DNA of 64,000 bases. It comes from Blattamonas nauphoetae (lineage: Eukaryota > Preaxostyla > Oxymonadida). Positions 6,680 to 58,919 of the stretch are shown here, piece after piece. The stretch is from positions 30,812 to 94,811 of the forward strand of contig JARBJD010000288.1 of assembly GCA_033064195.1 (NCBI GenBank), written 5' to 3'. Each line of letters starts with the position of its first letter. Position 1 is the stretch's first letter. Under the pieces are notes generated by a model. It had not been told where the DNA came from. It saw nothing but the letters and a program-made list of their open reading frames with translations, and ran no database searches. The position numbers and the translations under genes are program-made.

Positions 6680-7852
6680 TCAATAGTCCGAAGAATCAGC
6701 GAAATCTGAAGAATCAGTTGAATCAGACGAGTCTGAGGAATCCGATGAGTCTGACGAATCAGACAAATCAGAGTCATCCTCATCAACAAAGTCATGATTG
6801 ATGCCCTCGTTTATCGCCATCATATATATATTCACCACAACATCGTCATCTTCGGGGTCTTCAGTGGTCGTCATTCTGGCTTCGAGCGCATCTTCAAACC
6901 CAAATTCGCCAAGTTTTCTTCTCCGGTGTCCCCATCTTTCATCGCTCTGTAGCCTCAGTGTAAAATCTCGATCGTCCATGTCTTCGAGTTGTGAATCGAG
7001 CTTCTCCTCGTCTTCGATTTCCGTCATCCATGCCACTTCCCAAGCTTCTCGTTCTGTGATCAAACGTCGTCCGTGATTAGCCTCGAATTGTTCCATATCA
7101 GTGAGTCTCAAGTGGAGTTTCGTGATGGCTGTTGAGAGTGTCATCCTGTAGGTTCTATCCAATTTAAGAAACTGCTCTTTCGGAAGGATGAAGACAAGAT
7201 AAGATTTGGCGACTTCCACAACATTTTCAACGAGAAGAGATGAAGTTCTGGTTTTAGTCTTGGATTTCATCCAGGTGAAGGATTGTGAATCGAGGAAATG
7301 AGTGATCACCGAAATCAGATGGAAGTGAAGGAGTGAATTCGACAGTGGGATAGTGTGTGGTGGCTGGACGGAGAAGATTCTGGCAAGAACACGGCGTTCA
7401 AGGAGTGGGGCGATCTGGGCACCACATCGCTTCACAAATTGGACGAGAAAGGCGAGATCGTTCATCGCATGAGAGTCCTTGAACTTTCCTCTCGACGTGA
7501 CGAGAAGATTGATCAATGTCTCAATGTCATCGAACGCCGACTCGACGACTGGAAAGAGATTATAGGATCTCTCTTCAAGACTGTTGGTTACGAGATTCCA
7601 GCATGTGTTTAGAGTTTCTATGATATGCCGTTGTTCAAGAGGTGTTGAGTCAAAGTAATGTTCGAATGAAGACGTTTTGATATGGAGAAGAGATGTGAGG
7701 TTGGCATCGAGATCAGTCAACCAACGACAGCGGTGGACACGACCGGCTGCTGTTGGATGGGAAGAGGGTCTGATGGGTTGAGTGTGGAGGAGGAGAAGTG
7801 TGTGGTGAGTGTGGAGAGAGACGGGCGTTCGTCTGGATCGAAGGAGAGACAC
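6680..7852 (-). CDS. Hypothetical protein with acidic Ser-Asp tail, 5' end unclear
   Basis: The frame codes for up to 390 residues. The body (from about residue 45) is alpha-helical in character, with Leu/Ile/Val heptad-like runs, and the last 25 residues are a repeated Ser-Ser-Asp tail preceded by an acidic stretch. I do not recognise a domain; it resembles the solenoid proteins near 42-52 kb in style only. The first 45 codons overlap the 3' end of receptor A on the same strand in another frame (A stops at 7717) and read as low-quality sequence, so that start is doubtful. The next in-frame Met lies near residue 130. Either an upstream exon is missed or the 5' part was lost when receptor A became its neighbour. 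It ends with TGA. Confidence 0.55.
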   Translation of the reverse strand: MSLLRSRRTPVSLHTHHTLLLLHTQPIRPSSHPTAAGRVHRCRWLTDLDANLTSLLHIKTSSFEHYFDSTPLEQRHIIETLNTCWNLVTNSLEERSYNLFPVVESAFDDIETLINLLVTSRGKFKDSHAMNDLAFLVQFVKRCGAQIAPLLERRVLARIFSVQPPHTIPLSNSLLHFHLISVITHFLDSQSFTWMKSKTKTRTSSLLVENVVEVAKSYLVFILPKEQFLKLDRTYRMTLSTAITKLHLRLTDMEQFEANHGRRLITEREAWEVAWMTEIEDEEKLDSQLEDMDDRDFTLRLQSDERWGHRRRKLGEFGFEDALEARMTTTEDPEDDDVVVNIYMMAINEGINHDFVDEDDSDLSDSSDSSDSSDSSDSTDSSDFADSSDY

Positions 7853-10800
7853 TCAGCAACAAGCGATGCCAGCGAATTGTCTTCCCAATTCGAGATCAGA
7901 GGGAGTTGGCCTCCTTTCACTTGGCGACTCGCATTCACGGCATCCAGCTCTCCAAACGGCACAAGACCAGTCTCCAGTTCCCACAAGACGAGGCCAAGCC
8001 TAAAAACTGACGCCTTCAGAGAATCGTATGGAACTGTTCGTGGTTCTTTCTCGTCCTTGTGTTGGTTTCTGTCATCTTCATCAATCTGTTCAGGCGCACT
8101 CCAACGACGGTCCTCTTCTCTCATCTTCTTCCGATTTGCAAGCTGCTGTGTTGTCAGATCCGTTTCGTTCAAGTTCTGATCCAATTTCAGGCAGACAGAA
8201 CCAGTGGAGTCGAAGAGGATCCAGTGCGACGAGAGTTGGGTGAGGATGTCGCTGAATGGATTGTGTTGGAGGAGTCGGTCAAGTCCAGTCACCAACTGCC
8301 TTCTGATCTCCATCTTCGGCAGATCGTTTCTCTTTTCAACGTGAAGTGCAGAGTAAAGTGTGTGGCTTGCATCCACATAAGTAACAGCTGGCTCCCCTTC
8401 GCATTTCAAGACTTCAACTTGTTCGACGGACGGCTGTTGAAAAGACGAGAATTGTGGTTGGTCCTGCGCGACGCCATTGCTGATCATGTTGAAAGAGTTG
8501 GGAAGGAGTGTCATGTTCGATGTATCCACAATTGGTTTGATTGTTGAATTGTGCTCGAGTTCCTCATCTTTCAATTCGATTTGGATTTCGTCCAGCTCGC
8601 TCATCTCTTTTGGATTAGTTCTCTTCTTTTTTTGTTGAGAGCGACAAACCAGAATAAGCACGACAATCAGAATGATGAGGAGGAGAATGACGGAGCAGAC
8701 AATCGGAACAACAACCGACACAACTCGACCAGCCTGCGACATGGTCCCTTTCAATCCTGTCAGCGAGTACGAGTCTGTCTTTCCACTCTCTCCGAACAGC
8801 ACACGGCAATGGAGATCGTGTTTCGTGTTCAGAGAATCGAGCGATGACTGATGGAGAGATAGTTCGATTGTGTCTTCCTTCCATGATGTCATTTTGGATG
8901 GATCCAACTCCACCAAAATGTGTTCGCCTTCCGAGAATTCTGTTTCGGAGAGCGCGATCCCTTCAAACACTTCGAGAGACAGACCACACGGGATGAATGT
9001 CTCCCCTTTCAACACAATCTCAAACATCTTTGCTTTCCTGTTAAACGTGGAGGTTGACTTGGATGACGAAAGGGTTGGAACAAAGAAGGGAGCATGAAGG
9101 AGCTTATCTTCCTTCTCGACTGAACAGTTGTTCGCCGAAATCCAATGATGAGGCGACGAAAGACCATCTCCTCCTCCAATCGTCTCAATCGACACTTCTC
9201 CGCCTGAACAGAACAGATTCCGACGAAGCGAAGGGAAATCAGTGTTCGATGGAGTGTTGTCATGGAAGATGCAGCCAGTCAGTGTCAGCTCACCTCCAAC
9301 CATCAACACAGCTCCTTGTGGAAGATACTTCATTTCGACTGAGTGAAATGACGAGGAGCAAGTGGTGAGAGGTATTAAGGAGTTCGTCCACGAACACATG
9401 TCTGAAATTCCTTCGTTGTTTTTAGGAGTTGACTTTGCATGCCCAGAGAAACGACTAGTTTCAAAGTCGAGTGAAGTCACATTTGTCGCTTCAATCAGAG
9501 TTCCTGATGAGAAATCAGTGATTGAAATATTAGAAAGGGAACACGAGTCGAGGGAGGTGAAGACGAAGGCAGCAGACGAGAAGGAGATGTGTGAGAGAGC
9601 GACGTCTTTCACACGAGCTGATGTTCCTGATGCATCAACAAGGAAACCCGCAATCGATGAGACATCAATAATGGACACTCCAGAGACACTCACATTTCCC
9701 CCCTTCATCCACACAATCGACGAGTCCAATGCAATCCCACTCTCCACTCGAAGTGAATCCACACTCACTTTCCCTTCAACAATCTCAATAAAATTTGTGT
9801 TCTCTTTCATCTCATACTGGATTACCAAATCGGCCACTGTTATCTTTCCTCCAGTCACTCTGACAAGAGTTCCGTCACTTGCTCCCGTTGATGTCACCAC
9901 GATTGTGTTGAGAGTCGCAGTACCAGAAAGAGGGACGATGATCACTGCTTCGGCATTTTGTGTCGGTGGCAGCGTGATCGACAGTTCTTCCACGAGCAGC
10001 GAGTGGTGTGCGGCACATGTCAGACACCCACACGATGAAACATGCAGAATCGCTCCTTCCTCTCCCTTTGTCATTGAAATATTGTTTGTCAGAGTCATTG
10101 GCAGAGACAGATCTGAATCTCCCAAAATGATGATTTCGGACAGAACACGGTCAGTGGTCCGAAAAACCGCTCGGTCAACTGAGCTGCACCACACATTCAG
10201 GTATCCACACCTGTCCATGTCATACCCTCCTCGCTCAACTCGCACTGGTCCTTCCTGTGGTCGAAGATAGAACAGGAGCGAGATGGACAAGTCAAATGCT
10301 TCGTCGATGGTCCAAAGATGGTTCTGATTCGAGTCGTTCGAATAAGATCCCGAGAATCTCTCGTCGGCCTCTGAAATGAAGTTCGAGATGTTCCAACCAA
10401 CAATCTCGACAAAATGAGCTGTCGCCAAGTGCTCATCTGTTCCTTCAAATCTCAGATTGGTCAGAGAAAACGAAGGGAATGGAGAGGGAAGTGTTATGGA
10501 CGAGAAATTGAGCAGAACAGCTGGCGATCCTGATGAGCAAGGCATGGACGAGAAGTTCACAGAATCGATTGTCAATCTCATTCCACTTGTCATGTTCGAC
10601 AACAGAATCGATCCTTTCCCAGACTCTCGTTCAATCGATCTGAACTCACACGAGGTTAGCGAGAGCGACCCGGAGACGTGAGAGATTCGCGGTGACGAGC
10701 CGAGTGTGAACGATGAAAGAGAGCATGATGTCAGTGAGAGAGAACCAGACTCAACGACGAAGAGGGGATCAGCACGAGTGCTCTCGCCATTCGAGAACGC

Positions 10801-13800
10801 TGATGAACGGGCACAGGTGAACTGGACGGTGAAGAAAGAGAGATCTCCTCCTTCAACTTCGACAAAAGAGTCGAGGGAGACAGATACCTCTCGTTGAGTT
10901 GTGTCCGAAGATCGGACTGTTCGAGTGTCAGTCACTGTCATCGTTCTTTCCAGCGAGGAAGGCGTCGAGAGAGTGATCACTTCGAGAGAGTTGAGAGAGG
11001 CCGATTCCAACGCTGAGTCGAGTGTGGTGCACTTGAACTCAGATGATCCACAATTCGGATGATCAGTTGAGGCTGAATCAGTTGCATTCACAAGAATTCC
11101 ATCTGAAGGAGAGAACAGCCAATACACAAGCGAGCCTTTTCTCCACTTGTGACTCACAGCAAGAGAGGTGTCTTCTCCACAGAGAGTGGCCAGTTCACCT
11201 TTTGAATAGCTGCGAGCCCAATTCTCTGGAATGATTTGTTGTTTGAAATGTTGGCCTTTCACTGAGATATACTGCCCAGCAACCAAGTCACTCTGAATCT
11301 GTCTGAAAGTGATATTCTGGAATGTGACGTCGCCTGATGTCTCGACGACGATGATCGATGAGTTGAGAAGAGTCAGATTTCTGAAGGAGCTTCCTGTGAT
11401 TGAGAAAGGAGCAGATCCAAGTCCTCCTTCCTGTGATGGCATTGGACTGAAAGAGATAAGTGGCACGGGGAATGAAATTTGTGGTGACGAAGACCCACCA
11501 TAGTTGAATTCACAAGAATCAAGCGAGAGCCCACTTCCAACTGATGAAATGAGAGATTGGGAGTAAGTCCCTGGTTGGAACGCCACAAGACAACCACTCA
11601 TCTCCAACCAGCTCTCTCTTGACGCGACGGACACGAGCGTATGATTGAATTTATGTTGGAATTTGAAGTTGTGGAGTGTGAGATGAGAGCCCTTCCCGAT
11701 TGTAAACATGCTTGACCCTTCCGGAACTGTTGATTTGAGCTCGACTTTTGAAGCTTCGAGGAAAATGTTTGCTTCTTCCAGATACATCGGTTCAAAGATG
11801 TAATAGCTGCTCAGATAAGCAGAACGTGGACAGGCAGTGCCGTTTGGATAATAAATTTTGAGATATTGAAATGCATATTCAAGAGTTTTGCAGTCAGATT
11901 TCGAAAAGCGACAGGTGTCGTTATCAGTTCCAGTGTCCGAGATGAATATTTTGGGAAAATCGATGAAAGTGGCGATTCGGGTCCATTCGACTTCGTTTTC
12001 CTTTTTTGTGATTCCTTCGATTTCGAGGTGAGGCCAGCCACTCCACGAGGCCTCTTTGCATCCCTTCAGACGATCAGGTCCTTCGTCATTGAGAACAGAT
12101 TCTTCAACAAAAACATCGTTTCCGAAGGCAGCCGTGTTGTTGTCAAACACAGCAGCTGTGAGACTGATTGGAGTCTCAACAGTTGTTGTTCCTTTCACTA
12201 AAAACGCTCCTCCTCTCCCGACTTCCACTCCATTCTCATCCATCGCGGTTGCTTGACATTCTGCGAAGATAGAGGGAGAATGTGTATACTGATCGGACGA
12301 GAGTCGACACACACTGTCCAGTTCCAGAAAGATCACTCCGCCATGCTGTGCTGAACAAGATGAGAACTCAGACCGTGCGATTGTCACGTTGCATGAAGTG
12401 CAGAATGCGAAACCACCGCGCTGGGCTGAACAGGACGAGACTTTCAGAGTTGAAAGGGTGACATTCGAGTTCTTCGCGAACAGAAAACTTCCATCGCACG
12501 ACGAGTTGATTGTCTTGACTGATTTACTCGAATCAAGTTCGATGTTCAGAGTACTCATTCCTTCGAGATGAAGAAAGGGCTGAGTTGTGAGATTGACAGA
12601 TGTCACTGAAGTGGAGCGCCAAGTGAAGTTTCCATCATTAGTGGATCGAACATGCCGTACAAAAGAGACACCATTCAGGGTGAGACTAGCATCAATAGTG
12701 ACAGAGTTGATGAGCGCTGATCGTCCAATCGAATCGATGAAAGGGTGAGTGAGTGTTTTGTTGGCGAATGTAATATGAATTTTGGTCAGTGAAAGCGATG
12801 AATCATGATCGACAGAGAAAGCCGTGTTCTTGAGTTCTGAGAATGAAAGGTCGACATTATACAGTTCAAGTGAGGCGTTTAGAAGACAACCGAAGATCTG
12901 GTTGTTCTGTTGTGTGATGTTGATTTGAGATGGAGAGGCCAGAATAACATTGACGGACGCATTTTGGAGAGTGAATGGTGTCATCGATTCGGTGTAAACG
13001 AAATCTGTGATGATGGCAGTGTGGACATTGTTGTGGAGGCGAGAGCCGAGGAGGAACTGGAGAGTGAGATCAGACAGGCTTGGTTGACAAAGTCTGTTTG
13101 GAGCCGACCAGGCGAGGGTCATGTTGAGTCCTTCCTTCGAAAAGAAGAGGGTGTGAGGTGGCGGAACGAGTGGATGGGAATCGTCGATGAGGAAGGGCAG
13201 TTTGGATAAGGATTCAATTGCTGTGAAGTTGAGAGTGAGTTGCTGATCTGAGAAGTCTTTCAGAACAACATCGTCTCCCTTCACTGCCTCGTTCAGCCCT
13301 GTCCCCGCCGAGTTCTCATCAAATTGACATCCTTCCATTGAAAGTCTGCTTGTTTCATCGTTCCGCAGAATGTCAATCACCCCTGCTCGCCCATTCGAAC
13401 AACATCCTCCAAATTTGCTAAATTGAATGGAAATCGAGCCACTCGTTTAACCTTCCACACAACTCCCACTTTGCACTGATTCATTCACAGCAATGGTGAG
13501 CGTGCGAGAGATGGTTAAGAATAGCGTGTCTGACAGGAAGAGTGATCCAGTTCCAGATACAACGATCAATGCTGAGGAACCGGTGATTAACGAGAAACGA
13601 GATTGGGAGAAGTGACTTGTTCCTGCTGACATGGTGAACAGCTCATTCGTTCGATCCTGCTGGGCACACACGACAATATTCTTCACAGAAAGGAGTCCTT
13701 CCTTGCTCATTGCGACAATTGAAGATGAGGATGAGGAAGGAATGAGGGTCATCGAGCGAAGTGTCAGATTGGCACCAGCTTTCACGTTCAGCGTTACTTG

Positions 13801-16800
13801 CAGTTTCGTAGTGTGAGGACGCGGTGATTCGCCAAGCTTGAGGTGCACAGATTCCGTTCCATTTCCGACAATCTCGATGTCGGTTTGGATCGACAGGATT
13901 TGATTTTCGGTGAATGGACCATCGGAGAGTGAGAGGATGGTCGAACTTCCTGTTTCGAGTTGTTGGATTTCTGGCCAAATTATGTCGTTCGTCTCGACTG
14001 GATTTCCATTCTGATCTGCATCTGCCTCCATCGTGATTTCAGTTTTCGTGTTTTGAGTCTGAACGACTTTGAAGAGAGGGCATTCTGTGAGTGTCTTCCC
14101 GTCAGTTCTCACTCTGATTTCCCGATTCGACGTGCAGTCAACGACCGAAGAAGTGTTGAGTAGCGATGGGCTGGCTGTTATGAATCTAAAATCAGCATTC
14201 GTTGACGATTCGAGATCAAAGCGACAATCTTCCAGAAGAACTGATCCATTCGTCTCGACAGTCAAAAGATTCGAGGTCATTCCAGTGAGGTTGGTGAACG
14301 TGCAGGAATAAGCTTTGAAGGCAGTGTCTGTGAGATGGAACGGGGATGTATTTGGGCCTGTTGTTTTGCATTCTTTCATTGTACACGTGTCCATCGTGAG
14401 TGATGTTGATCGTTGGCACGTGATCAATCCAACTCTGCTCGTTTCACACCCGTCGAACAGACAGCCGTGAAAGAGAAGAAAAGAGTGTGCTGCTGTCTTG
14501 AGGAGTTGTGTCGGATAAGAAGTTGGCATTATGTGGAAAATACTTCCAACAAATAAGATGTCGGTGGAGTACGTGTTTAAGTCCACTTTGAACCCGTTCA
14601 GAGTACAGTCGACTACGAGGAGAGGGTCGTGTTGAGTGACGAGATTGTATTCGATCATCAGTGTTCCATTTACAAGATTAGATTGAGACACCACAACTGG
14701 CGCAACACCCGAGACTGAATATAGACTGAAGTATGAGTTTGTGTTGATAATCTCCGTGTCGGTGACGCTCAATCCGCCTGATCCAAATGCACAGTTGCGA
14801 ATGTAGATACAATTTCCAGTCGAATTTCCGTCTCCCTCAAGGCGGCAGTTGCAGATAATTGGAGGGGACGATGTGTCTTCCAGAGTTTGAAAGGAGATGA
14901 AACCTCCATTTCTCGATTGCTTCTTGACTCCCGACAGAGTGAAGTTGGAGTCGACGATGGAGGGAGACGTGGACGTGTAGAGAGTCCCCACACCCCCTCC
15001 ATTTTGATAGTAGTTTGTTGAATGTCCCGGGTACCAATCTTCGAAGGAACACGACGAGACGGAGAAAGGGGATCGGAGGAGGTTGAAGATTGATCCTCTC
15101 ACAAGAATGCATCCACCGTAAATGTCTAAAGTCTCTTTTGTGGAGGTAACAGAGCAATTGTTAAATGAAGAATTCTGAACTGTCAGATGTGTTGTGTTTG
15201 AGGTGAGAATCAACGCTGATCCACCATCATACTGGTTGCCTGTGGTGTGGATCATGTTTTGGAAGGTGCAGTGCGTGATGGTGGTTTCGGTGATGATATA
15301 CAGCCGAGTGTCCCCAAGCTCACCGTCGTAAGTGTCGTGATCGAAGACGGTGTTGGAAGATGGAGACGAAGGATGGGGTTGAGAGGAGAAAGGTCGCTCC
15401 TCTGATGTTGTGCTGCACCAGATGAATGTCGTGTTTGAGCACAGCAGGCTCCCTCCGCTGTTCATGTCCCGCACGGTCGATCCGCTCAGATGGTTGTTGC
15501 TCCCCCAAACCGAGCTCCCAATCATTTGTTGACGAAACGAAGGCGAGGCGGAAGGGACAGATCCAGGAAGCGATGAAACATTCCTAAACGAAATTCCGAT
15601 GAATGACGTCGTGATTCCTGAAAACATCAAAAATCCCGTTCGGTCCGCTCCTTCCCCCACTCCAATCCCATCTTGTCCTATGATCCGTTGGTTCCCCACA
15701 TTGCTGTTCAATATTGTCAGCACAAATCGTTCATGTCCCTCAAATCCACGATTATCGGACAAAATTGCTCCCATTCGATCTGATTTTGAGTGGATCGCAC
15801 AGTTGATGAGGGTGATTGAGGAGTCCATGGTTGAGAATTCCTCCATCCTATCAAGTGACATCAATGGTCCCCAACGACTTCGAAGGAACTCAGCATGCGA
15901 TGCACAAACAATGGATGAACATATTGAGGCGAACAGCACTTCTGAGTTTGCCGTTTCGTGATCAAGTTCCATTCTCACTTGGGAGATCGAGAATGTTGCA
16001 TTTATGACAACGAACAGGCGAGGTTGAATGATTTGTTGGTTTGATGGCATCTTTGTCGGATATACACGTTCATTTGAACTTGGTGGTTCAAGAATGATAG
16101 TTGTGTCGTTTTCTCCATTAAGAGAGAGATATGTCGACATTACTTCAAGGTCCACGCATGTAACTTTGGCATTCGGCAGTTGGAGGACATCATCAGTCAG
16201 ATAATTCGGCATGGGTCCATTGTGTCTGGTGGTTTTGAAAAGAGTCTGGCTCAACGGGTTCAATGTGTCTGGCGGTAGATTTCTGAAGAAATCTGGAATG
16301 TATCACAATATAGTTTTCATATATGGTAGTGATGAGATTCATAGAGAGGGTGTCGAAGGGACAGAACCACATAAAAGTCATGGAATGATGAAATTCGTCC
16401 TGTCAATGTTGATCTGAAAAAACTCCAGGTTTTGACTTTATGGATGGTGATTTTGAAAAATCATATGTTTATCACATAATAATGTTCAAAACAGACAATA
16501 ATCGAAATATAGTGAACCTACAAGTCCAATGAAGTGATAGTTATTAAGGATTTCGAATCGGAGCCTCACATTCTTGAAGGGCAGATCCTCCATTGACTGC
16601 TCCGCCTGTAGCAACAGTTGGGAAAATAGATGCCAAGAATGTAATCAATCGATTGTGTATGTTCCAACCCTCAGATGCTCGACTTTTGGAGGTATCTCAC
16701 CACCAGACACACTGGACCACCGCCAGACATATCGGACCACCACCAGATACAATGGACTTCGCCAGACACACTGGACCCATGCCGATAATTCTTGTCCTTT

Positions 16801-22988: not shown

Positions 22989-23387
22989 AATAGATAAAGC
23001 AATTTATGGCTTGATCGTTGCGAGAATACAGTTTTATGGGCCTCATTTAAGGAACACGACTGTGAAGAAATAAGATGAGAATACTGCTCTCGAGAGTGAA
23101 TTTTTTCCAATCTTGTCTTTTGTGAAGCTACTTTGATGTAACTCTTCCATCTTGGCTATAATTTCAGGATCGGAGAAAAAATGGTATCGGAACGATAGAT
23201 AGCGAGGAGTCCAGGACAACTTAACATCAAAAACAAAAGATAAAGTTCCTCCAAAAATGCGGGAGACAACGACGAGAAAGGGCAGTTGTCTTAAAACACA
23301 ACTCGCTGAAAGGGGATCATATCAAAATCCACATGTTTCAAAAGAAAGATCGGAATGTTGAGAGTGAGCACTGAAGAAATCCATTCG
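22989..23387. other. Upstream region of the metallophosphatase gene
   Basis: No gene seen. Positions about 23206-23262 carry a roughly 60-bp sequence (AGGACAACTTAACATC, GTTCCTCCAAAAAT) repeated in the same orientation at 24203-24260, so it flanks the MITE on both sides. TCCATTCG at 23380-23387 is the left target copy of that MITE. Confidence 0.45.
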
Positions 23388-24260
23388 GGCATGGATGTAC
23401 CCTGTAGGGGATCGGGAGACTGTAGGGGATTGAGCAATTATGTGTCATGGCGACAGTATGAGATGGGGGATTATGAAAAATATCACACTTCTGATGGAGG
23501 AACATCGTTCTTTGATTTCTTAAAAAAATCAGTGTGGAGGAACTTGTGTATTTTCTCAAACACTTTTGATCTTTGTGACATTTCACAATATTGCAGGTTT
23601 GGTGACTGAATACTCACACTAAACGAAGAGAAACTGGGGATATATGCGAAATGAAATGTAATTAGTGACCTTAGTGTCCATTTGAGGCGAAGACAGCCAA
23701 CGATGTTGTTATGGTCTTGATCAAGGATCACGACCATCAATGACTTTTACAAAAAATGAAGTTGAATTTTGTGGATGAAATACAAACAGAATTAGAATAT
23801 GAGTGGAATTATAGCCGATAAAGGAGTAATTCGAAGGAGAATGGAAAATGACACAATCGAGGATGTATGAATCTCATTGTTGTCTCTGGCACGTTTCATT
23901 GTGTGGAGTGAGTGGAAAACACTCTTTTAAGTCAACCCCTACAGAGTGTCAAAATCCCCTACGGGCTCCCTTTCATCCCCTACAGAGTCCCGATCCGTCC
24001 CCTACAGGGTCCCAATCCCCTACAGTCTCCCGATCCCCTACAGGGTACATACATGCCTCCATTCGTTAATCTCTGCAATCTGTTCTGAGGAGAACTCAAG
24101 AACAAACAAGATGAAAGGAAGAAGAAAGAACAGATGTTCAAAGAGCCCGCTTGGATTAATGTGAAATCGGACAGACAAAAGTGTCGTACGGAGAGAGGGT
24201 GAGGAGTACAGGACAACTTAACATCATAAGCAAAAGATAGAGTTCCTCCAAAAATACTGG
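23206..24260. repeat. Direct repeat of about 57 bp on both sides of the MITE
   Basis: Copies at about 23206-23262 and 24203-24260 share GAGGAGT(C/A)CAGGACAACTTAACATCA and AAAAGATA(A/G)AGTTCCTCCAAAAAT with a few mismatches. They lie about 1 kb apart, outside the MITE boundaries at 23388 and 24057, so they are not its target duplication. Confidence 0.7.
23388..24057. mobile_element. MITE, 670 bp, 8-bp target duplication TCCATTCG
   Basis: Termini are GGCATG(G/T)ATGTACCCTG inverted, continuing with TGTAGGGGATCGGGAGAC. The left end holds two and the right end about six copies of a TGTAGGGGAT(C/T)GGGA-type unit, arranged as inverted subterminal arrays. TCCATTCG lies directly outside both ends (23380-23387, 24058-24065). 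The interior has a short palindromic motif GGTCTTGATCAAGGATCACGACC-like at 23710 and no transposase frame. A diverged copy lies at 27262-27865 with TGTAGGTTGT instead of TGTAGGGGAT. It is non-autonomous and belongs to the same GGCATG-ended group as the insertion in receptor A. Confidence 0.92.
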
Positions 24261-25168: not shown

Positions 25169-25544
25169 TCAAGACTTCGGGTGGATAGATTCGAGATTGT
25201 CTTTTTCGTTTTCGAGCGACGATTCGGGAAGTGTCTGTAGGAGCGAAGCCACAGAGGCGAGTGATGGGCGGTCGTCGGGGCTGAGGGAGAGGCATTCGGT
25301 GATCAAATCCCTCATCTCTTTCTGAATTCCAACCATTTTTGGCAGAACTCCTGTCCCAAGTTGACGCTGAGCATTCACAGCGTCTTGTTCTTGAAATGGA
25401 ACTTGACCTGTCTCGATTTTGCACAAAACGAGGCCGAGACTAAAAACTGCCAACTTCCGAAAATCAACTGTTCCGTTCGATTCTTTGGCAACCTCTTCTT
25501 TTACCAGTTCAGGTGGTGCCCAATGTTGTCCATCCTCAACTGTC

Positions 25545-26400
25545 CCAATAATTTTGAAAGAATCCATCCGTTTCACTGGTCTTTCTATCAAATTCTGTCT
25601 ATTCTTGTTCCAGGAACAGATTAAAGTCCTCAATCTCCACGGATATCTTCTCTCAAAACTTCGTTTCTACACATCCTCTTTTCAAGCACTGACTCTCCAA
25701 CCTTCATTGTGACCTCACTGCTCCACCTTTGATAAACTGCGTTCCACTCAGATCGATGTACATCAAGTCACATGTGTGAAGATCGGGTGTGCTCTTTTCA
25801 CTTTCTTTGAAACTCGTAGCACCTGAAAGCGGATTCTCTTTTTCCATGACGGTTACTCTTGGAGATTAAGATAATGATGTCCCAATGTCTCTTCACCAGT
25901 GTCAAACAGACATATAAAACCTGTTTGTTCTCAATTATCTCTCATAATTTCAGATAGACAAAGGAAAGGAGTGTTCAGGACACGATCGATGATGATCTTG
26001 CCAGATGGGTGCAAACATGTGTCCAATTCAAGAAAAAATACTTGTACTCCTGGGTTCATGCAGAAATCTAATTTCAACTGATAATTCAAGTGCAATAGAG
26101 CATTTTCGAGACTATTGAGTATTTTGCCTCTATTTCTTCACAATACATCTTATCCGTACTCTCCATTGTAGAACCTTCTTTTTTCACATTGTCTCACCTC
26201 ATGATCTTCTCTCATCTGTTTTTGAAACAATAAATGTGTTCAATTGGCGTTTCAAAAAAGTGTCGTTTCTCGTCACGATCGAAGCTCAATTTCGAAACAA
26301 ACCCCTTTTCCATCATATTTGAGTGATTTTAAGAATTTGGAGAAAAATAAAAAAAGTGAAACCATCCATAGTGTTTTGGCTCTTTTCAAAATTATTGGGA
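25545..26400. mobile_element. Insertion element, 856 bp, 17-bp inverted ends, 6-bp target duplication
   Basis: TCCCAATAATTTTGAAA at 25545 is matched by its inverted copy ending at 26400. CAACTG lies directly outside on both sides (25539-25544 and 26401-26406). No transposase frame is visible. It splits the kinase-like tail of receptor B between KTNP and VEDGQHWAPPEL; deleting the element plus one CAACTG rejoins NPVEDGQHW in frame on the minus strand, which is independent support for the boundaries. The element family differs from the GGCATG group in termini and target size. Confidence 0.85.
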
Positions 26401-43554: not shown

Positions 43555-44614
43555 ATGATCATATCCGAAGGTATCCACTTCATCTCCTCATTTTCTCACG
43601 ATTGATCCAGAATACTCACCATTCCTGAACTGGAATCCGAGTGCTTCTCTTTCAGTTGATTCTGTTGTCCCAATCTTCGTCTCACTTGTTTCAATGGTCC
43701 GAGATGGCTTCAAGTTTGATGGTGAACTTGTCACAAATGCTTCTGCGTTCCTTTCTTTCATGAGCCAACGTATCAATCCGGTGACTCATTTCTTCATCCT
43801 TGTCGGCGATTTGTTGAAGGCCATTGGGCAAGGCTCCACCAATCCTGCCTCCGTGTTTTTGGATTCGATTATGATGCTCTTGTCTTCGTCCCATCCATCG
43901 ATATTCCGGGAAGCCCTCTCCTTCGTTCACAACTCAATGAACTATTGTTCCGCCTCGATCCGCCTGGCCCTGATTTCATCCAAACTCATTCCTAGAATCC
44001 TTTCAATACCCCACTTCCGAGATCTGTCTGTGATTGATGATGAACTCCTTTCCAGCATCGTCTCCATCTTCCGATTTAGCATCGAGATCGTCGAAACTGT
44101 TTATCTGCAAGCACTCTCCATCACTTCCCACACTCCCCCTGAATCAATCCGAGATGTGGTGTTCCATGAAGTATTCATTCCAATGGAACCATCTCTCGTC
44201 CAGATCAGTCGAAATCCTCTCCTTTTGTCATCGAACAATGCAATCCAAGCCACTCTGATGATCCTGTCAATAATCTTTGAAACGGGTGCTTTTCACCAAC
44301 CGTCACTGGATTTGATTGGCTCTTCCCACTTCCCACTGATCTATCCATCACTTCTGTCCGAAGTCGAAAACGAAGGCGCCCGTCAACTCATCATCTGGTT
44401 TATGTCTCGATCCATCGTCAAATGGGAAGAAAGTGAAGCCGTTGTTGTGGGGAGAGGAAGAATAGTGTTGCAGATGCTGGAACAAGAAGGTTTCGAAGAT
44501 TATCTCGAAGAACTATTCTTTCACGACAAATCATCGCCAAATGGGGTGAATGTGAAGTTCTTCTCGTTCAGAATCATGAATAATTTGGGAATGAACTCGC
44601 ATCTGCCCGAATAG
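43555..44614 (+). CDS. Alpha-solenoid family protein 2, with 16-nt first exon
   Basis: The model uses a 16-nt first exon (43555-43570, ATGATCATATCCGAAG), a 40-nt intron (43571-43610) and a second exon to the TAG at 44614, giving 339 residues that begin MIISEEYSPFLNWNP. Without the intron the first usable Met is at 43694 and the conserved EYSPFLNWNP would be lost. The tandem neighbour at 44869 has the same exon-intron layout with the same intron length, which supports it. The helical body contains the family blocks SLVQISRNPLLLS and MLEQEGFEDYLEE. Cytosolic by appearance; function unknown. Confidence 0.78.
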
Positions 44615-44868
44615 ATGACACATGACACCAAAAGAACTATGTCGTCCTCATACTCTTCTTTCACTCTGATTCGTTTCTTCATCATCTTTAGGTTCCAGAT
44701 GCTTCTGGATCTTCATTCACATTCATGTCAATCATGTTTTGTGATGGACAGTCTTGTTTACCAACGAATTACGTGTAGATACATTCTTGGGTCAGAGATA
44801 AGTTTGATCGTCCCATCAAAGTGTTTGATCGAAAAGAACCCTCATAATAGAGAAGGCAGACACTCTCC

Positions 44869-45922
44869 ATGATCACATCTGAAGGTATCCACTTCATCTC
44901 CTCATTTTCTCATGATTGATCCAGAATACTCTCCTTTTCTGAAGTGGAATCCGAGTGATTCTCTTACCGTTGATTCTATTGCCTCAATCTTTGTTTCTCT
45001 TGTTTCAATGGTCCGAGATGACTTCCAGTTTGATGAAGAGCTTGTCAGCAAAGCTGTAAAGTTTCTTGATTCGATCATTCGGGATATCAATCGCCACCGA
45101 TCCACCACAGTTTTTTTCACAGCCATTGAGCAAAGCTCCTCAATCACCGCCGCAGTGTTTGTGGATTCGATTATGATGCTCTTGTCTTCGTCCCATCCAT
45201 GGATGGTCAGGGATACTCTCGTCATCGTGAGTTTCTATTTCGAATACGGTTCCACATCAAACCGCCTGGCCCTTGTTACATCCAAACTCATTCACAGAAT
45301 CTTTTCAATCCCTCACTTCCGAGATCTTTCGGTGATCGATGATGAGGCCATCCTGTTGAGAATCCTCAACATTTTTCTTTTTTCCGTCGGCCTCGCCGAA
45401 GCTCCTTCTTATCGATCCCACTCCATCACTTCCCACACTGCCCCTCAATCAATCCGAGATGTAGTGCTGAATGAAATGTTGATTCCAATGGACCCATCTC
45501 TCGTCCAGATCACTCACAATCATCACCTATCGTCGTCGATCGACGAATCCACACTCCCCTTTTGAATCCTTCAGGCAGTCTTTGATTTGGGTGTAGTCCA
45601 CCAACCAACTCTGATTTTTTTGTGTTCTTCTCACCTCCCAATGGTCTCCCAAACACTTCTCTCAAGAGTGGAATTCGAGTTCAGCCACCAATGCAAACTC
45701 GAGCCCATGTCCCATACAATCACCAAATGGAAAGAAAGTGAAGCTGATGTTGTGGTCAGAGGAAGGATAGTGCTGCAGACGCTTGAAGAACAAGGATTTC
45801 GAGATTACCTCGAGCAGACGCTGCTTCACGACAACTTGACGGGACAAGGATACAATATGAGGTTCCATACACTCACAATCACAAACAATTTGGGAATGAA
45901 CTCTCCTCGGCCCCAGTGGTAG
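44869..45922 (+). pseudogene. Alpha-solenoid family protein 3, broken by one in-frame TGA
   Basis: A tandem duplicate of the 43555 gene, about 70 percent similar by eye. Exon 1 is 44869-44884 (MITSE-), the intron 44885-44924, and exon 2 continues MITSEEYSPFLKWNPSDSL. An in-frame TGA at 45563-45565 stops it after STLPF; the same frame then continues ILQAVFDLGVVHQP to the TAG at 45922, aligning with ILSIIFETGAFHQP in the intact copy. So a single nonsense change (or small local rearrangement) truncates it at about 220 residues. The 3' flanks of both copies are also similar (ATGACAC after the stop), showing the duplication unit includes flanking DNA. Confidence 0.78.
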
Positions 45923-46322: not shown

Positions 46323-49300
46323 TTAAAACAAAAGACACGAACAGCGGAGTGAATCGTCTTCCTGTTTCGCTGGTTTCGTGGACTCCTTCGACGCAGCAAG
46401 GTCTTCCGTCGATGCATTCGCCGCCTCGTCCTTCTCCTCGTTTGCGAGTTCGTCCGCCACAGACGGGCAGGCGAGAAGGATGTTCGGATGCGAGTGGGAG
46501 AACGTCTGGACGGACATGGCGTCATTCGTGGAAGAGAGACGCGAGTGACTGTTGGATGAGTGAGTGCGGACATTGAAATCTTCGTCCGCCTCGACCAGTG
46601 GCGACAGGATCCGTCCCGCTGAAAACTCAATCGAGTTTGTCGACGTGTCGAGTGGAGTGAGATTGACAAGCCGACGTGTCTGCAGCTCCGAAGCTGTCGA
46701 GTTTGGCGGAAAGACAGACACTTCGGAGTGGCCATTGATAATAACGTAATCGGGAGAGTTCCTGACCAGCTTCGGCATCGCTGGCGACGACTCCGTGTGC
46801 AGACTCCGCCTCATCATGTTCCCCGTCACAGGAACAGACGGGCTGCGTCTGTGTTTGGGTTTGAATGGGACAGTGTCGACTGGGTCGAGATGAGAAGTGG
46901 CGAGTAGCGGCGACTGTCTTGATTCGAGTGTGGTGATGCTCTGACTGCGCGAAAGTGTCCGATCCGAGCCTTCGTTGCTGTCGAGCGACACAACCGACCC
47001 TGTTCTGATCATCGGGGCCTCCGGGTTTCCGAAGATGTGTGTGCGGGCAGCGATGGTGACGCTGCGAGGGGTGTGCATTTCGGTGTTGTCGTCGGGGATC
47101 TTGAGGTGGCCAGTGGAAGGCGACTCGGTGAGAAAGGACGAGGCCATCAACGACTGCCCAGATCGGAAGGGACTGGGGCCTGTTTGGTGGATGATCTCCG
47201 GTTCGACTGGCTCGAGCTTGTGGTCGAAAGTGATGGGCTGTTTGATGGAGACCTTCTGAAGGAGAGACCCCACATCGGATCCCGTCTTCTGCCTTCTTTT
47301 CTTCCGATGCGCAGAGCTCTGCTGCTTCTGCGGACGAGGAATCATGTTTGGTGCATTCGCCGACCCTCTGGCCAGGTACTGCTGTTGGAGGAGAGACTTC
47401 CCAGGCATCATCCCCGAATGTGGCGAGACACCGTCAACCATTCCGTACTGCCCGCTCTGCGAGGGAGGAGCACCCATCTGCGACGGTTTCTGGATGCTCA
47501 TTGCGAGTTCCTGCAGAAGCTGGATTTTGATGTCGTCGGGGTAATTGAAGAGCTGCTCCAGAGGCACTTGGAGGAGACCTTGAAGGCCTGTCTGCTGCTG
47601 GCCGGGGTGGCTGTGTCCGTGGCTCGACGACATCTGGCTGCGCCCCATCTGCGGGAAGGACTGCCGGTTGGGGTTGGCAGAGAGTCTGATGGCGTCGAGT
47701 TGGGGTTGGTCGAGTGGAGGTTGTTGTGGGGCGCCTCGCTCTCGTTTGGAGTGCGTGTTGTCCAGCTGGATGTATTGTGATTCGGGCAGAGGGATGGGCG
47801 GGATGTCCTCGATGGTCTGTGCTGTCTTTGCTTTCTTCATCGAATACGTCGGCACGTTCCTCGCCGATGGACAGAACATCTTTTGCGTGACGTCCATTCC
47901 GCCCACCTCCAACAGCTGCAGAACAGGCTCCGACTGATTCGCTCGCATGCGGCCTCCGTGCGCGCTGAGGTCGGTGGGAGGTGTGCTCGACGGGGAGCCG
48001 ATGGGCGAGACTGGCGGTTGGGTCTTCTCGGGCACTTCGGGTGTCCACTTCTCGTCGGAGGAGCCGTGATGGTACGAGAAGTGGCGTTCGGAGTCGGTTT
48101 GTCCTGACTTCTCTGTTTCCTTCCCTTTTTGGGGTGGAGGAGGGGCAGATGCGTTGGAGGGAGTGACAGAAGTGAAGCCGTGTTGGTGTGTGTTGAGGTG
48201 GGTGTTGTGTTCGATCTGGGTTTTGGAGGTGTGGTGGGGAGCAGCGTGGAGGAGTGAGTGCAGTTTTGATTTGTGGAAGACACAGCGATGAGATGAAAAG
48301 AAATGCAGAATCGAATCAAAACTGACGTTGGTGTGCTGACACGAGAAATGAGGAGCCGAACGACTTCTGAACAGCCCGTCCATGCCGTCGTCCGAAGAGA
48401 AGAGGTCAGAATCCTCAGACGACGTGCGCGGGACGTTCGGAAGGGACTCCGACTGTTCGAGCTGTCTGTTCGGGTTGAGAAGGAAGAGTGCACGCTGCGA
48501 GTATGTTGGCTGCTTAAAGACCGATTGCTGTGGAGTGTGTGTTTCGTGGTGTTTGATCCGAACCGATCCGCGACGGGTGCGGAACGACGTTGGCTCGTTT
48601 GATGTATTCCGTTGATGGTCGCTTCCGTGGAGTGGCGAGTCTGTCGTGGAGTTTGCTGGTGTGGCTGAGAATGTTGAGGAAATGTCGCCAGACGAACCGT
48701 TGTGGATCTTCTCTCCGGTTTCTTGGCTGGCGGTGAGCTGTTGGGAGGTGAACGAAGCGTGTGCGAGGTTGGACGAGGCTTCGATGCGCTTGTTTGCGGA
48801 GGGTGGAGGCGGAGAGAGAGGTTCTGGTGTTTGGAGTGTGTTGCTGTCCATGGTGTGTTTCGAGTGGAGTCTGTTTGAGGATTCAAGTCCTCTCTCTTTC
48901 CTCTCCACGTGTGTTGTGCTTCTGCTCAGCGTGTTGTGCGACTCGTTCCGCGGGGAGAGCTTCTGCCCTCCTTCCATGATCCCCTCCGTCTGCGCGATCA
49001 AACCCATCGAATGAAGACTCCCAGTGTCGGTTAAGAAAGACGAAAGAGTGATTTCCGAATCTGCTCTGCTCATGGTCAGTGTTGTGATGGAGCAATTTGT
49101 GGGGAAGAGAGCGAGTGTCGGTTGTGGCGTGGGTGGATTGCCTGACACCAACGAGAACGACGCAAAAGTCGATCGCTGCGAGAGAGATTCGGTCGTCTCG
49201 TTGAGATTGTTCAAAGAAAGATATTTGTCGGTGTCTGGGTGGTGGGTGTTGGTGCGTGCGGAGTGGACGAGGTTCATGAAAGGGTTCGTGGCGAGTGGAG

Positions 49301-51088
49301 AGAAAGTGGGGGTTGGAGTGGGTGTGCCGGAGTTGGCGGTGAAGTTGTGTTGGAGAAGGGGAGACAGCTGCTCTGTGGGGCTTCCTTTTGACATGTTGAA
49401 CAGATGCTGGACCTGCGGGGAGTGGTGTGTGTGGAACAGAAGAGGCGAGAAATCGTTGTGGAGTGGGGAAGGAATTTGTTGAGGGGCTGTTTGTGCGGGA
49501 TAATCCATTGAGAACTGCAAGGGCGAGGAATTGGACTGTTTGTGGATGAGAACGGAAGGGGGAACGTGAGACGGGACGGGTGATGATGGTTCCACTGTTT
49601 GCGGTGGTGCTGGCTGATTCTGCTGAGCCTTCTTCTTTTCATGACGCTCTTTGTCAAATGGTTTGATTTCCGGCAGCGTGAAACGGGAAGAACGCGATTT
49701 TTTGTGCTCGTCGTATGGCTGTTTGGGGGACTTGACTTCCTGTTGTTCTTTGTTCTGTTTACTTCGAGCGCGTTGCTCCTCGCGTTGGTTTTTTGTCAAA
49801 TTGTTTGTTTGTCCCTGATTCTGCTCCTTTTCCTTCTGAGCATCTCGTTCCCAATCGAAGAAGTCGATGAGTGGGTTTCCTGTTGTATGGCGCGTTCTCG
49901 GTGACTTTTCAGGGGTGCTCGCATGTGTGCTAACATTGGTTCGTGTGATGTCGGACTTTTCCGAGAAATTGAGGTGAGAAATATGCGAAGGTGTGGACGG
50001 GAGTTTGAGATGACCAAGACTGAGCTGATTGAGTGCAGATGAGAAATTCGAGATCAGAAGATCATAGTTGGGAACATCGAAATAACTTTGGGTTCGGAGA
50101 TATTCTTCCATCTCTAGAAAAACAGGTGGGAGGTCGGCACATAGACGCTTCCCTTTCTTCACCCAGCGGTCATTTTGAGCTTGGTAATAGTCGTTTGTGG
50201 GTGGAATGAACTGATTCGCGGGGACATACTTGTCCGCAAATTCTTCCTTCGCATATCCAATTTCTTTGCGTTCCTTCAGATCGTTCCATGGAAGCTTACC
50301 AATTAAGAACTCATATAAGCAATACAACACCGACCAAAGATCGTCAACTCGACTGAGATCCTTAAAGCGATGCGCTCGGAGCGAGGCGTATCTTGCTGTT
50401 CCTCGGAAACCGACATGACTGCGTTTGGGGTACTCTTCGCCGTTTTCTGTGTGTGTTCTTTTCGCAAGACCGAAATCAATAAGATAAATCCTGTTCAGAT
50501 CGTGAGAACCTCGGCCAATGACAAAGTTGCTCTGATAAAAGCAAAGGGAGGGTGACGAAAGATCGAGTCACACTGGTTTGATGTCCCTGTGGACCCACTG
50601 GATTGAATGCATAGCTTTGAGTGCCTTAACCATTTCAGCACCTATTTTGAGAACGGTGGGGTAGGTGAATGTTTTGTTTGGCTGTTTAGAAATCAATTCA
50701 CTGAGATGGAAGACGGTTGGTGAGAAAAAGAGGAGGATACGCAAGATTTGGCCCGAGTAATTCCATAGCAAGATATAGCTGGTCGTGGTATGTGCCAAAA
50801 ACATAATATTTCGCAAAATAAGGTAATTCTGATAGAATGATTGGATAAAAATGGGATCGTACTTTGGAGCTTTTTTAGAACGTAATATTCGAGGTTTAAG
50901 ACACTTTTGACCGCCTTTTTACTCTCAAACTTGATAGCTACCGATGGTTTCGAATTTGAAGAAAGATAGGTGGCCTCGAAGATGTCGCCAAACGCCCCGT
51001 GTCCAAGACGCTTTATCAGTTGGAACTTATCATGGATAATATTTCCAACTTGAACCGTTTTGGGCTCACTGTTGCGCGAGCGGCTCAT
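46323..51088 (-). CDS. CK1/TTBK-family protein kinase with long tail and CaaX-like end
   Basis: The spliced product is 1,549 residues from four exons; introns are 50862-50829 (34 nt), 50740-50701 (40) and 50573-50532 (42), all confirmed by restoring kinase motifs. Catalytic elements are complete: GHGAFGDIF (29-37), VAIKFE (Lys53), LNLEYYVLKKL, LLGPNL, HRDIKPSN (Asp144) and LIDFGLAK (Asp166), then FRGTARYASLRAH and SRVDDLWSVLYCLYEFLIGKLPW. These are hallmarks of the CK1 family, nearest to tau-tubulin kinases. About 1,200 residues of Ser/Pro/Gln/His-rich, probably disordered tail follow. The protein ends CSCLLF, a CaaX-type box that would allow prenylation and membrane attachment. The Met at 51088 is chosen over one 31 codons upstream because the extension looks noncoding. 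Confidence 0.92.
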
Positions 51089-51442
51089 TCTCGGCGAAAA
51101 ATAGCCTGACCTTCGATAATGGTGATCTGGACCAGAAAAGGTGCCCACAATTTTGTGTTGAGAAAAAAACAGCCATAACACACTGTGTCAGCTTGTCGAA
51201 GTGCAAATAGAAACAGTTGAGTGAAATAGTTATGCATGTTAATGTTTGTAGTTGAAAATACTGTGAGAATCAGGTGATTTCTCCCTCTTCCGTCTGGCTA
51301 CGTTGAGGTTTAACTTGGTTAGGGGAATAGTCTTCTACACATCACAAAAATTGTGAATCTCGCCTTTCCGATGAATTTTGATCTTGATGAAGACAGGTGG
51401 TTGGTTCGTTTAGTTCGATTCTGTGGCTGCTCTGGTCTGTTT
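51089..51442. other. Intergenic region upstream of the CK1-family kinase
   Basis: About 350 bases, with the kinase start on one side and the stop of the 51443 gene on the other (same strand). It should contain the kinase promoter. No motif is assigned. Confidence 0.35.
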
Positions 51443-52979: not shown

Positions 52980-53101
52980 TCACTGCACTCCATCGAACAA
53001 CACCCCCGACCCACACGAGAACTCCACTGACTCCAGTCGCTCCTCCAAATCCTCCAAGTTCGGCCTCTTCGACGCTTCCACACACAGGCACGACTCAATC
53101 A

Positions 53102-56100: not shown

Positions 56101-56160
56101 ATTAAGTTCTTTTCGAATAAAAACGGGTTTATATTTAAAAACGGGTTTGTGGAGGGTCTA
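53102..56160. mobile_element. DNA transposon-like insertion, 3,059 bp, 3-bp target duplication
   Basis: Inverted ends are TAG(TG/AC)CCTCCACAAACCCGT, followed at both ends by a second ATATAAACCCGTTTTTATTC-type unit (53128-53150 and 56115-56135). TCA is duplicated outside (53099-53101, 56161-56163). Deleting the element and one TCA joins KELI to ESCLCVEASKRPNL of receptor C in frame, giving the expected kinase C-lobe helix. The interior carries a broken coiled-coil gene but no transposase I can recognise. Three-base duplications occur in CACTA and Harbinger-type elements; the ends here read TAGTG...CACTA outward, the reverse of classic CACTA order, so I leave the superfamily open. Confidence 0.9.
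53550..55670 (-). pseudogene. Coiled-coil protein gene carried inside the transposon, decayed
   Basis: The minus strand reads as one coiled-coil/helical protein in several frames. From upstream: a helical stretch (YSDMDNALEMISNAAEYDF, then VRHAIDVAKEFSEKTLIR) in two frames, an acidic/proline linker, a strong coiled coil (KATLVEVERQRSADKAKYEK), a further coil (REVDEWIGMNKEKSHSIETL), a 97-nt intron (54304-54208) joining SNQR to IDTLSFEVSSLL, and a basic C-terminus ending NTDGQKSVLD. Damage includes frameshifts near 55500 and 54560, an in-frame TAG near 54515 (KSLE|TRQK) and another at 53823-53825 (PTLA|PAKTK). Base composition and codon use resemble GC-richer host exons. It may be a captured host gene rather than a transposase; I do not recognise the family. 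Confidence 0.55.
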
Positions 56161-58919
56161 TCAGCTCTTTCAGCTCACAATCTTTGACTAGCTCCATTCG
56201 AGGCAGAATCCCACTTTTCATCTGACGAGACGCATTCAGTGCGTCGATCTCGCCATGCGGAACAGCTCCAGTCTCAATCTCAAACAGAACAAGACCAAGA
56301 CTGAACACAACTGCTCGCCGAGCATCGAACTCCTTTGTGGGCTCACCAGTCTCAGCAGTTGCTTCCGGAGCCCTCCATCGAAGCAACTCGAACCCTTCCC
56401 CCTGCTTCTCTGCCCCACTCCCCACACTCCGCTGCGTCGACACAGCTGCCTGAGTCAGTGATGGAGCAAGGGTGGTGTGTGCGAGCGATTGCGGCGTGGA
56501 TGGGACTGAGGTGAGATCGAGATTCACATGGCCATCTTTGTCAAACAGAACAGAATGCGATGAGAACCGAGAAAAGAGAGCGATGTGCGTGTTCGTCTTG
56601 CTCAGCCGAGACAGTGCCTGAACAATCTGTTGTGCTGTCATAAATTTCACAATCGGTTTCTTGTTCGACGAGTGCAGTCTGTTGTACAATGTGTCCTTTC
56701 TTTCGATGCCGACTGGTTCCACCTTGGAAATCTCGAGAGGCAGGTTGAAGGTCTGTTGTTGTTTTGGATTTTGTTCCGATTGGTCCGCATGTTCGAATGG
56801 CGCATCGGAAACAGCAGCAACTGGTGTTGTCAAGTGAGGATTGAGCATGTCGTCCACAAATTCAATCTTGTCAGGAGGGAGGTCGTTCATTTCTGTTTGG
56901 TCCTGTTTCAGAAGCAACTCCTTCTCTTTCGATTTCGAAGAGCGGCGACGAAGAATGACAACGACGATCAGGATCACAAGAAGAGCAACCACACACCCAG
57001 CGATCAGCGGGATCATCCACTTCATCGCTTGCTTCATCAGTGCTTTTCGCTCATCCGATTCGCTCGCTTTCACAACGAACCACGATGTCTGGAAACCATC
57101 TCCAAACACAAGTGTCCCATTCCATCCAAATTTCGGGTTCAGTTGAGCAAGCTCGGACGATGACAGCGAAACAGAAATCGACGATTCGTTCGTCCATCCA
57201 AACAGAGTGGGTGTCAGCTCAACTCGAAATCCTTCCAAGCTCGAAGAACTTCCAACTTCACAAATCAACAGAAACAGACTGCACGGAATCAGCATCGATC
57301 CAACCAAGTCAATCGACACAGACTTGTTCTTGTGCATCACACTCCTCGTCAATGAAACATCCAACCAAGGAACAAACAGACCAGCCACAGTAACTCCAGA
57401 CCCTTTCTTCACAACACAATCCTCACTCGAGATCCACAGCGACTCGCTCTCTTCGTTTCCACTCTTCTCGTTCTCAATCTCCACTTCACCAGACAAGCAG
57501 CGCATGTTCCGACTCATCGAAGGGAATGTCGCATCGTTCGCACTGTTCGCGATGAAGACAGTGTTGAACAGCGACACCACACTTCCATTCACGTGCAGAG
57601 CACCCTGCGGCAGATGCGAGAAGCGAGTCTGCTCAATCATAGTTGGGGTGTCGTTGATTTTGATGAGTCCTGTTTCCCAAGAGCAGAGATTGTCTGTATC
57701 ATCGTCTTCGTTGACTTGGTTTTCGTTGAGTGATGTTGAGACTCCACCGAAGGAGCAAGAAAGGATGATCAGATCCTCGCCGTACTCAGCTGTGATGAGT
57801 GTTGGGGTCTGAATTTGCTTCGTTGTCAAGTTGGTGAATGAGCAGGCATCGAAAGAGGAGAGGACGAAGGGAGTGGAGATGAACGAAATCGGAGGCAGCG
57901 CGAGATTCACAAGCGAGAACGATCCGCCGACCACGGAAACAAGTCCATCACTCGAGGCAATCGAAGGCGATACCAACAGATCGCTCATCTGCACTGAACC
58001 TTTCTTCACCAACAGCAACTTCCCAACCGACGATACTCCATTCAGAAGCGACAACGACGAGAATCGTCCAACACTTCCTTCTCCATCCACACACATCAGT
58101 GTTGTGTTGATCAGCGAGGACGTATCTCCTCCAGAACTGAACACAACTGTATCTAAAACTATCTTGGAACTCATACATGACAACACAGTGGACGAGCAAT
58201 CAACTCCAACAATGATTGACACTCCATCAATCTCAACGTGCTCTCCACTGTCAACCATAATTCCCAGACCTTTGAGACTGATCTCATCGATCTCAGCTTT
58301 TTTGATCTCAGAAAATAACTAGTGTTCAAATTCTCATAAAACTCGAAATAACGAAGTAAAAGACCCACTATCCGTGTTGTTTTTTGTTTAGAAGTACTTT
58401 CATTGAAATCTCGAGATGAATCGTCACAGAGCCGTCCAAAATTTTGGACACCTTTGATCTCTTTTCCAGAAAAGTGGACACCTGTCAAAGGTGTCCAAAA
58501 TTTTGAATCAATTTTCGTAAAAAATCCCAGGATTTGGACACCCCCAGATTCTGGACACCTTTCTGCCAAAATAGGAGGTTAGGTGTCCAAAACTCTGGAT
58601 TTAAGGAAAGCGTGAAAAACAATCAGAAAAGAGTTCATGAGATACAAAACCCAAAAAAGGAGGAGAAACGAACTACAAAAACCGTCCTAGACAAAGGAAG
58701 CGACAGATCATGACGAAAGATAAAAAGAGAGAATAGAAGAAGAAAAGAGCAAGATGGTGGAAGAAAGAAAGTAGAAATAGGGAGTGGAAGGGCCAAGGCG
58801 TTGATGGAACAGGACAGCACGTAGGTAGAGGTGAAAAGAGAGGGTAGTCAATAAAAGGTAATGGACGGCATGATTAGAGGGTACATAAGAGAACGCGAGA
58901 TGGAATGCGAAAGAGTAAA

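Follow-up and report, generated by a model that had tools for sequence, protein, structure and literature searches.

Families of kinase-like proteins with many damaged or catalytically incomplete members have been described in protists. In Entamoeba histolytica, the portion of the published account used here reports that 6 of the 35 members of the TMKB1 family are full length and that the kinase domain is complete in 13 of the 28 members having one (PMC2880585). In Giardia, 139 of 195 Neks are without a key catalytic residue, Nek-GL4 shows rampant pseudogenisation, ankyrin repeats are present in 133 of 198 and, within the sections drawn on, no receptor kinases were found (PMC3218828). In Monocercomonoides exilis, the relevant excerpt lists the 'protein tyrosine kinases' among the largest gene families and describes an overlap with unclassified repeats (PMC8767320).

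Here, we analysed a window of 64,000 nucleotides from Blattamonas nauphoetae, by which we mean the whole stretch of DNA. On balance, we lean slightly towards reading this window as a cluster of related giant surface proteins, all from one family, that would cross the membrane once and carry C-lobe-only pseudokinase tails with a docking role. The locus resembles TMKB1 in comprising multicopy, mostly truncated, putative single-pass receptors of a gut protist; unlike the locus, TMKB1 has a Cys-rich/Asn-rich ectodomain and, in the part of its description considered, a full kinase domain in intact members. The Giardia Nek expansion is likewise a large protist kinase family that is mostly dead and affected by pseudogenisation, as far as the sections drawn on describe it, whereas its members are Neks and not receptors and N-lobe loss is not among the features described there. 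With the M. exilis family, as the excerpt presents it, the locus shares a repeat-like expansion, and the tail of copy A (see below) could earn that family's name via PF07714. With such precedents, dead kinase-like receptors lying in a damaged cluster are nothing strange for a protist. Receptor pseudokinases as such are already known, and the unusual part is the C-lobe-only tail.

Comparing copy A to the window with tblastn, we obtained nine rows, one of which is A itself. The copies and the elements that interrupt them are:

7717–16302, minus strand: copy A, one frame of 2861 codons with a giant ectodomain, a membrane helix and a tail
13447–13449, minus strand: in-frame TAA, codon 952 of the A frame, with the frame open on either side
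32367–35787, minus strand: copy B1, mid-ectodomain only (A residues 1112–1917), in two frames
25169–32098, minus strand: copy B2, a disrupted copy (A residues 230–2847 with gaps) in several frames
27261–27865, strand not given: dispersed repeat of about 0.6 kb within B2, with its other copy at 23387–23991 (70% over 609 nt)
56135–58318, minus strand: copy C, an open frame of 727 codons that matches A residues 2175–2815 only
3465–4268, minus strand: D, an ectodomain relative without a tail (profile match, E 1.9e-6)

As assembled, the window seems to retain copy A almost whole, with the other members (B1, B2, C, D) reduced to relics. The frame of A, 16302–7720, closes with TGA and its interior holds a single TAA, which lies upstream of the membrane helix and tail. 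The order of ectodomain, predicted membrane helix and dead kinase-derived tail is present in A's frame, with the stop preceding the helix. Two ways of reading across this stop were rejected. An alternative code with TAA and TAG as Gln does not fit the use of 58 CAA and 35 CAG codons in A compared to one TAA, and the other long frames in the window terminate with TAA, TAG or TGA. An intron over the TAA was traced by eye with a single GT..AG choice and leads to a frameshift; it is also disfavoured by the frame being open on both sides and by a weak alignment between A and B2 that spans the site (20% identity, A residues 838–1861). A candidate signal-peptide reading frame near 16890 on the minus strand was spotted by eye; we found no evidence that this frame is spliced to A, and no signal peptide exon is established for A.

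The sequence-only reading had described three receptors, A, B and C, that share ectodomain, membrane helix and tail. In the tblastn comparison with A, its 'B' is two things, namely the ectodomain fragment B1 (35787–32367) followed by the interrupted copy B2 (32098–25193). The long frame of B2 is broken by an in-frame TAG (30068–30070) and an in-frame TGA (28595–28597), the frame shifts near 26590, between the frame of the membrane helix and that of the catalytic loop, and its two tail pieces are set apart by a stretch of some 0.8 kb that shows no similarity to A. C is partial: it aligns from 58090 to 56159 with A residues 2175–2815, and its similarity to A ends after ELKELI (56159), short of the RPS motif, leaving it without most of the ectodomain and without the end of the C-lobe. 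The chance of C's 727 open codons at its base composition is 7e-17. About 0.1 kb 5' of C, we observed an inverted-repeat element whose arms (58429–58920 and 60318–60801) are 93–100% complementary. A weak match to the ectodomain profile at 62960–63502 on the plus strand (E 0.0063) lies near the window end and may begin another copy.

With B and C disrupted and A carrying one nonsense codon, the description as a family of receptors overstates what the window could express. On the assembled sequence, no copy encodes an intact receptor unless a further assumption is made for A. Any function in the window would be putative, and for B and C it is doubtful. That A, B1, B2 and C are all lesioned or truncated counts against the docking-tail reading, whose closest rival is the decay of a larger receptor family. 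According to this rival, what remains in the cluster is the wreckage of a far more extensive family of receptor kinases, none of it now working, and the tail lost HRD a single time, through decay of a source copy from which duplicates continued to be made. We consider this possible but rather unlikely. It is consistent with the lesions across copies, with the dispersed and inverted repeats inside or next to B2 and C, and with the precedents of Entamoeba TMKB1 (PMC2880585), Giardia Nek-GL4 (PMC3218828) and the M. exilis tyrosine kinases (PMC8767320), to the extent that the excerpts of these papers describe them. What it would have to explain in addition is the pattern of conservation, to which we return below.

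The membrane segments and tails comprise the following features:

8641–8730, minus strand: predicted transmembrane helix of A (best 19-residue hydropathy 3.82)
8362–8640, minus strand: putative cytosolic linker of A, 93 residues, without an N-lobe match in Pfam
7816–8361, minus strand: kinase C-lobe remnant of A, spanning helix D through the RPS motif (Pfam and PDB profile matches)
8182–8244, minus strand: catalytic-loop replacement of A, LTQLSSHWILFDSTGSVCLKL (tail alignment and kinase profile alignment)
26818–26904, minus strand: predicted membrane helix of B2
26444–26593 and 25172–25537, minus strand: tail pieces of B2 (similarity to the A tail)
25172–25537, minus strand: second half of the B2 C-lobe (PF00069, scanned as 25172–25666)
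56942–57025, minus strand: predicted transmembrane helix of C (hydropathy)
56513–56575, minus strand: catalytic-loop replacement of C, FSRFSSHSVLFDKDGHVNLDL (tail alignment)

The descent of the tails from kinases, as proposed in the sequence-only reading, is supported by Pfam matches for A and B and by profile matches in PDB. The piece of A at 7720–8979 (420 residues, membrane helix and tail) matches PF07714 with E 2.2e-7, above the Pfam cutoff. The piece of B at 25172–25666 matches PF00069 with E 7e-8 and 32.6 bits compared to a cutoff of 31.7, a margin of 0.9 bit, and also passes PF07714 (1.4e-6). For C scanned separately, Pfam returned no kinase family up to E 1. A tail profile built from A, C and two B pieces was searched against PDB and found 300 sequences at E up to 0.01; the top matches, among the best 60 of these 300, are the MLKL pseudokinase (6vc0, E 1.3e-11) and B-Raf (2.7e-10). 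The B-Raf alignment spans the helix-D motif (TLYSALH in A) through RPS. Matches of the tail in NCBIfam reflect generic kinase C-lobe similarity and are far under the cutoffs. The suggested folding of the tail with AlphaFold2 (four rows) gave no fold (pLDDT 35); a Foldseek search with this model returned nothing significant, and we treated its result, including a TNNI3K row at E 5.1, as no evidence. By sequence comparison, the tails are C-lobe homologues of TKL-type kinases.

An N-lobe with its glycine loop and VAIK had been described as absent, and this was borne out: in the linkers that follow the membrane helix (93 residues in A, 84 in C and 77 in B), a Pfam scan up to E 10 found no N-lobe and gave only one weak, unrelated match. 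Among the best 60 of the 300 PDB matches, none begins before profile position 78 (helix D). The envelope of the B-Raf match nonetheless extends to chain residue 32, and among the best 60 of 384 matches in another kinase listing, two TNNI3K rows begin a few residues before helix D. Like MLKL, the tails carry a C-lobe of TKL type that reaches from roughly helix E as far as RPS, with the catalytic residues lost and 'SS' within the catalytic loop. MLKL carries an N-lobe and an N-terminal four-helix bundle executioner domain and has no giant ectodomain, whereas the tail here begins at helix D beneath the predicted membrane helix. Similarity of the tails to B-Raf and other RAF kinases covers the C-lobe between the (S/T)LYxxLH motif of helix D and RPS; unlike the tails, B-Raf has a complete, active kinase domain.

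The replacement of the catalytic loop was found as first described, with (L/F)SSH(W/S)(I/V)(L/M)FDxxGxVxLxL present in all three tails (A 8182–8235, B 26447–26500 and C 56513–56566) and no HRD or DFG tripeptide in the tails of A, B and C. From the B-Raf alignment and the tail columns, the HRD Asp is replaced by Q/K/R, the catalytic Lys by S and the Asn by W/W/S in A/B/C. DFG is replaced by LDQ/LQD/LTS in an ungapped reading by eye, at a place where the program's alignment has a gap. The helix-F Asp, whose structural role is to contact HRD, is S/A/V in A/B/C, which fits the loss of this contact. Other motifs are kept to a different extent: all three tails retain ExDAxNAxRQ; A and C have an intact APE, which reads PPE in B; and SLGLVLxE(L/I)ETGxVP is kept in part, with E changed to K in B and S changed to R in A. 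The Arg of RPS is retained in A and B, and C stops short of it. These replacements bear on the idea of a split kinase, in which the N-lobe and catalytic loop would come in trans from a separate polypeptide. Only the N-lobe absence speaks for such an arrangement, whereas the C-lobe's own catalytic Asp and Asn are replaced, and we regard it as extremely improbable.

Comparing the tails to each other, we find that the copies are about 36–46% identical, with 76/167 identical residues between A and B (46%) and 86/237 between A and C. All three tails have 126 columns in common, of which 43 are identical. The 21-column replacement block is identical at 14/21 columns between A and B, at 10/21 between A and C and at 9/21 in all three, which places it at rank 36 of 79 windows (29 to 35 for windows offset by up to three columns). 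Conservation peaks elsewhere: the top 21-column windows, with 13/21 identical in all three, lie over helices F–G, as do nearly all windows that rank above the block.

Mismatches in the tails are distributed unevenly over codon positions 1/2/3, with.44/.35/.60 for A–B (chi-square p 1.7e-5),.48/.42/.62 for A–C (p 3e-5) and.48/.35/.64 for B–C (p 1.8e-5). Position 2 has the lowest and position 3 the highest mismatch in eight of eight aligned segments, where it should be considered that the alignments were built by protein similarity, which itself lowers the mismatches at positions 1 and 2. In six of these eight segments, protein identity is 34–46%, and the remaining two have 24% and 31%. Near-saturated third positions combined with this protein identity and with long open frames are hard to obtain without selection, which suggests that selection acted after the copies split. 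For deeply diverged copies that lack HRD to show this codon-position bias and still have open frames, selection would have to act on them for long, which counts against simple decay.

The simplest reading is that an ancestor without HRD left descendants that were long kept, followed by later breakage of B, C and perhaps A. The catalytic loss is probably ancestral and older than the duplication that separated A, B and C, and the C-lobe-only pseudokinase is, judging from these comparisons, real and probably old. The earlier interpretation as a conserved design and not random loss thus holds insofar as the sharing and the codon bias count against independent random loss; sharing by itself points to descent from an ancestor without HRD and not to present function. 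Overall, the original observation is confirmed in part and its interpretation is supported in part.

The ectodomain had been proposed to form a parallel beta-helix. We modelled 420 residues of B1 with AlphaFold2 from three rows; pLDDT over the five models went from 63.5 for the best down to 32.4, with a pTM of 0.67 and mostly strands. Foldseek, run with this model against PDB, returned 231 matches up to E 10; TM-scores are low, the best match has E 0.032, and none of the best 50 of the 231 reaches E 0.001. The top rows are a galacturonidase, an alginate lyase and a polygalacturonase, and most rows among these best 50 are polysaccharide-acting enzymes, tailspikes or autotransporters, which we take to be right-handed beta-helix proteins. 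NosD in Pfam matches B1 with 19.4 bits, under the cutoff of 23.6, and the ectodomain profile has no relative among PDB sequences at E up to 0.1. The strand-rich model hints at a beta-helix but does not demonstrate it; a right-handed beta-helix is the likely fold on the basis of the modelled piece. Chlamydial Pmp proteins have a repetitive, beta-helix-like ectodomain comparable to the one suggested here, and PF02415 matches B1 weakly; in contrast to the proteins here, they are bacterial autotransporters, and the match (14.1 bits) is below the cutoff of 20.6. In the motif counts, Pmp motifs were not clearly above shuffles (GG[AFVGLI] 8 compared to 4.4, p 0.065; F..[NC] 15 compared to 11.1, p 0.135). 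N-glycosylation sequons (N-x-S/T) are enriched in the ectodomain of A, with 46 compared to 31.4 in shuffles (p 0.004); their density per 100 residues in the tail (1.30) is not far under that in the ectodomain (1.82).

The giant repetitive ectodomain, the sequon enrichment and the tail-less partial copies B1 and D would also be expected of an adhesin or variable surface antigen, in which the ectodomain works, the tail is a leftover anchor and the relics may serve as donors for gene conversion. We think this improbable, as the tail is conserved at least as well as the ectodomain: A and B2 are 46% identical in the tail compared to 24–36% in the other B2 segments, and the ectodomains of A and B1, with 37–40% identity, are also under this value. 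Furthermore, the listed direct repeats that link A with B1 are short, with lengths of 79 nt (77%), 75 nt (80%) and 46 nt (93%).

Returning to the docking-tail reading, the most likely function is that of a non-catalytic docking tail beneath a giant adhesin-like ectodomain. One strong hydrophobic segment is present in each of A, C and B2, with weaker ones elsewhere in A and C, and from this we infer the membrane topology. The C-lobe homology, the linkers without an N-lobe match, the codon-position bias, the open frame of C, the conservation over helices F–G and the sequon enrichment in A speak for this reading. Besides the lesions, what weighs against it is the poor tail model, the missing Pfam kinase match for C scanned separately, B's margin of less than one bit, the similar sequon densities of tail and ectodomain, the weaker hydrophobic windows and the lack of an established signal peptide exon in A. 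The architecture would combine a long repetitive beta-rich ectodomain with a single membrane helix, followed by a linker of some 80–90 residues and a C-lobe-only TKL-type pseudokinase, whose pseudokinase state would have arisen before these copies duplicated. In an intact member, the ectodomain would bind a surface ligand, and the tail, presumably incapable of canonical ATP binding and phosphotransfer, would act as a docking face. By analogy with the helix-G face of KSR/RAF–MEK pairs, the best-conserved surface, that of helices F–G, may bind a partner.

A conserved C-lobe-only form beneath a giant repetitive ectodomain would be unusual and would provide a natural test of the role of an isolated C-lobe. 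It would also mean that some protist kinase counts are inflated by domains incapable of kinase activity. A speculative extension, which we consider unlikely, is that many members of a whole large protist family now labelled 'protein tyrosine kinases', reported among the largest in M. exilis, are receptor pseudokinases with no more than a C-lobe, which owe the label solely to the PF07714 match of this lobe; if true, this would be a surface-receptor system founded on half a kinase. We found no relative at E 1e-3 or better in viral contigs (7, 30 and 46 pattern matches) or prokaryote contigs (82). A literature search that covered open-licence PubMed Central alone, and is thus weak as a sign of absence, found no paper on oxymonad pseudokinases.

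Lastly, we describe other features of the window. The pseudokinase tails are not its sole kinase-like sequence: at 46326–51187 on the minus strand, two frames match the start of an N-lobe (PF07714, E 4.8e-4) and part of a C-lobe (PF00069, E 9.2e-5), both under the cutoff, and the second of these frames continues for more than a thousand codons. A near-perfect palindrome at 1006–2578, with arms of 461, 178 and 118 nt that are 100%, 99% and 92% complementary and 79 nt between the innermost arms, is either a foldback element or an assembly artefact. At 43555–45562 on the plus strand, there are two tandem gene copies about 1.3 kb apart, with listed repeats that are 75–85% identical and no Pfam match above the cutoff. 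At 36521–41650 on the minus strand, a WD40 protein is encoded in a single frame of 1710 codons that ends with TAA.
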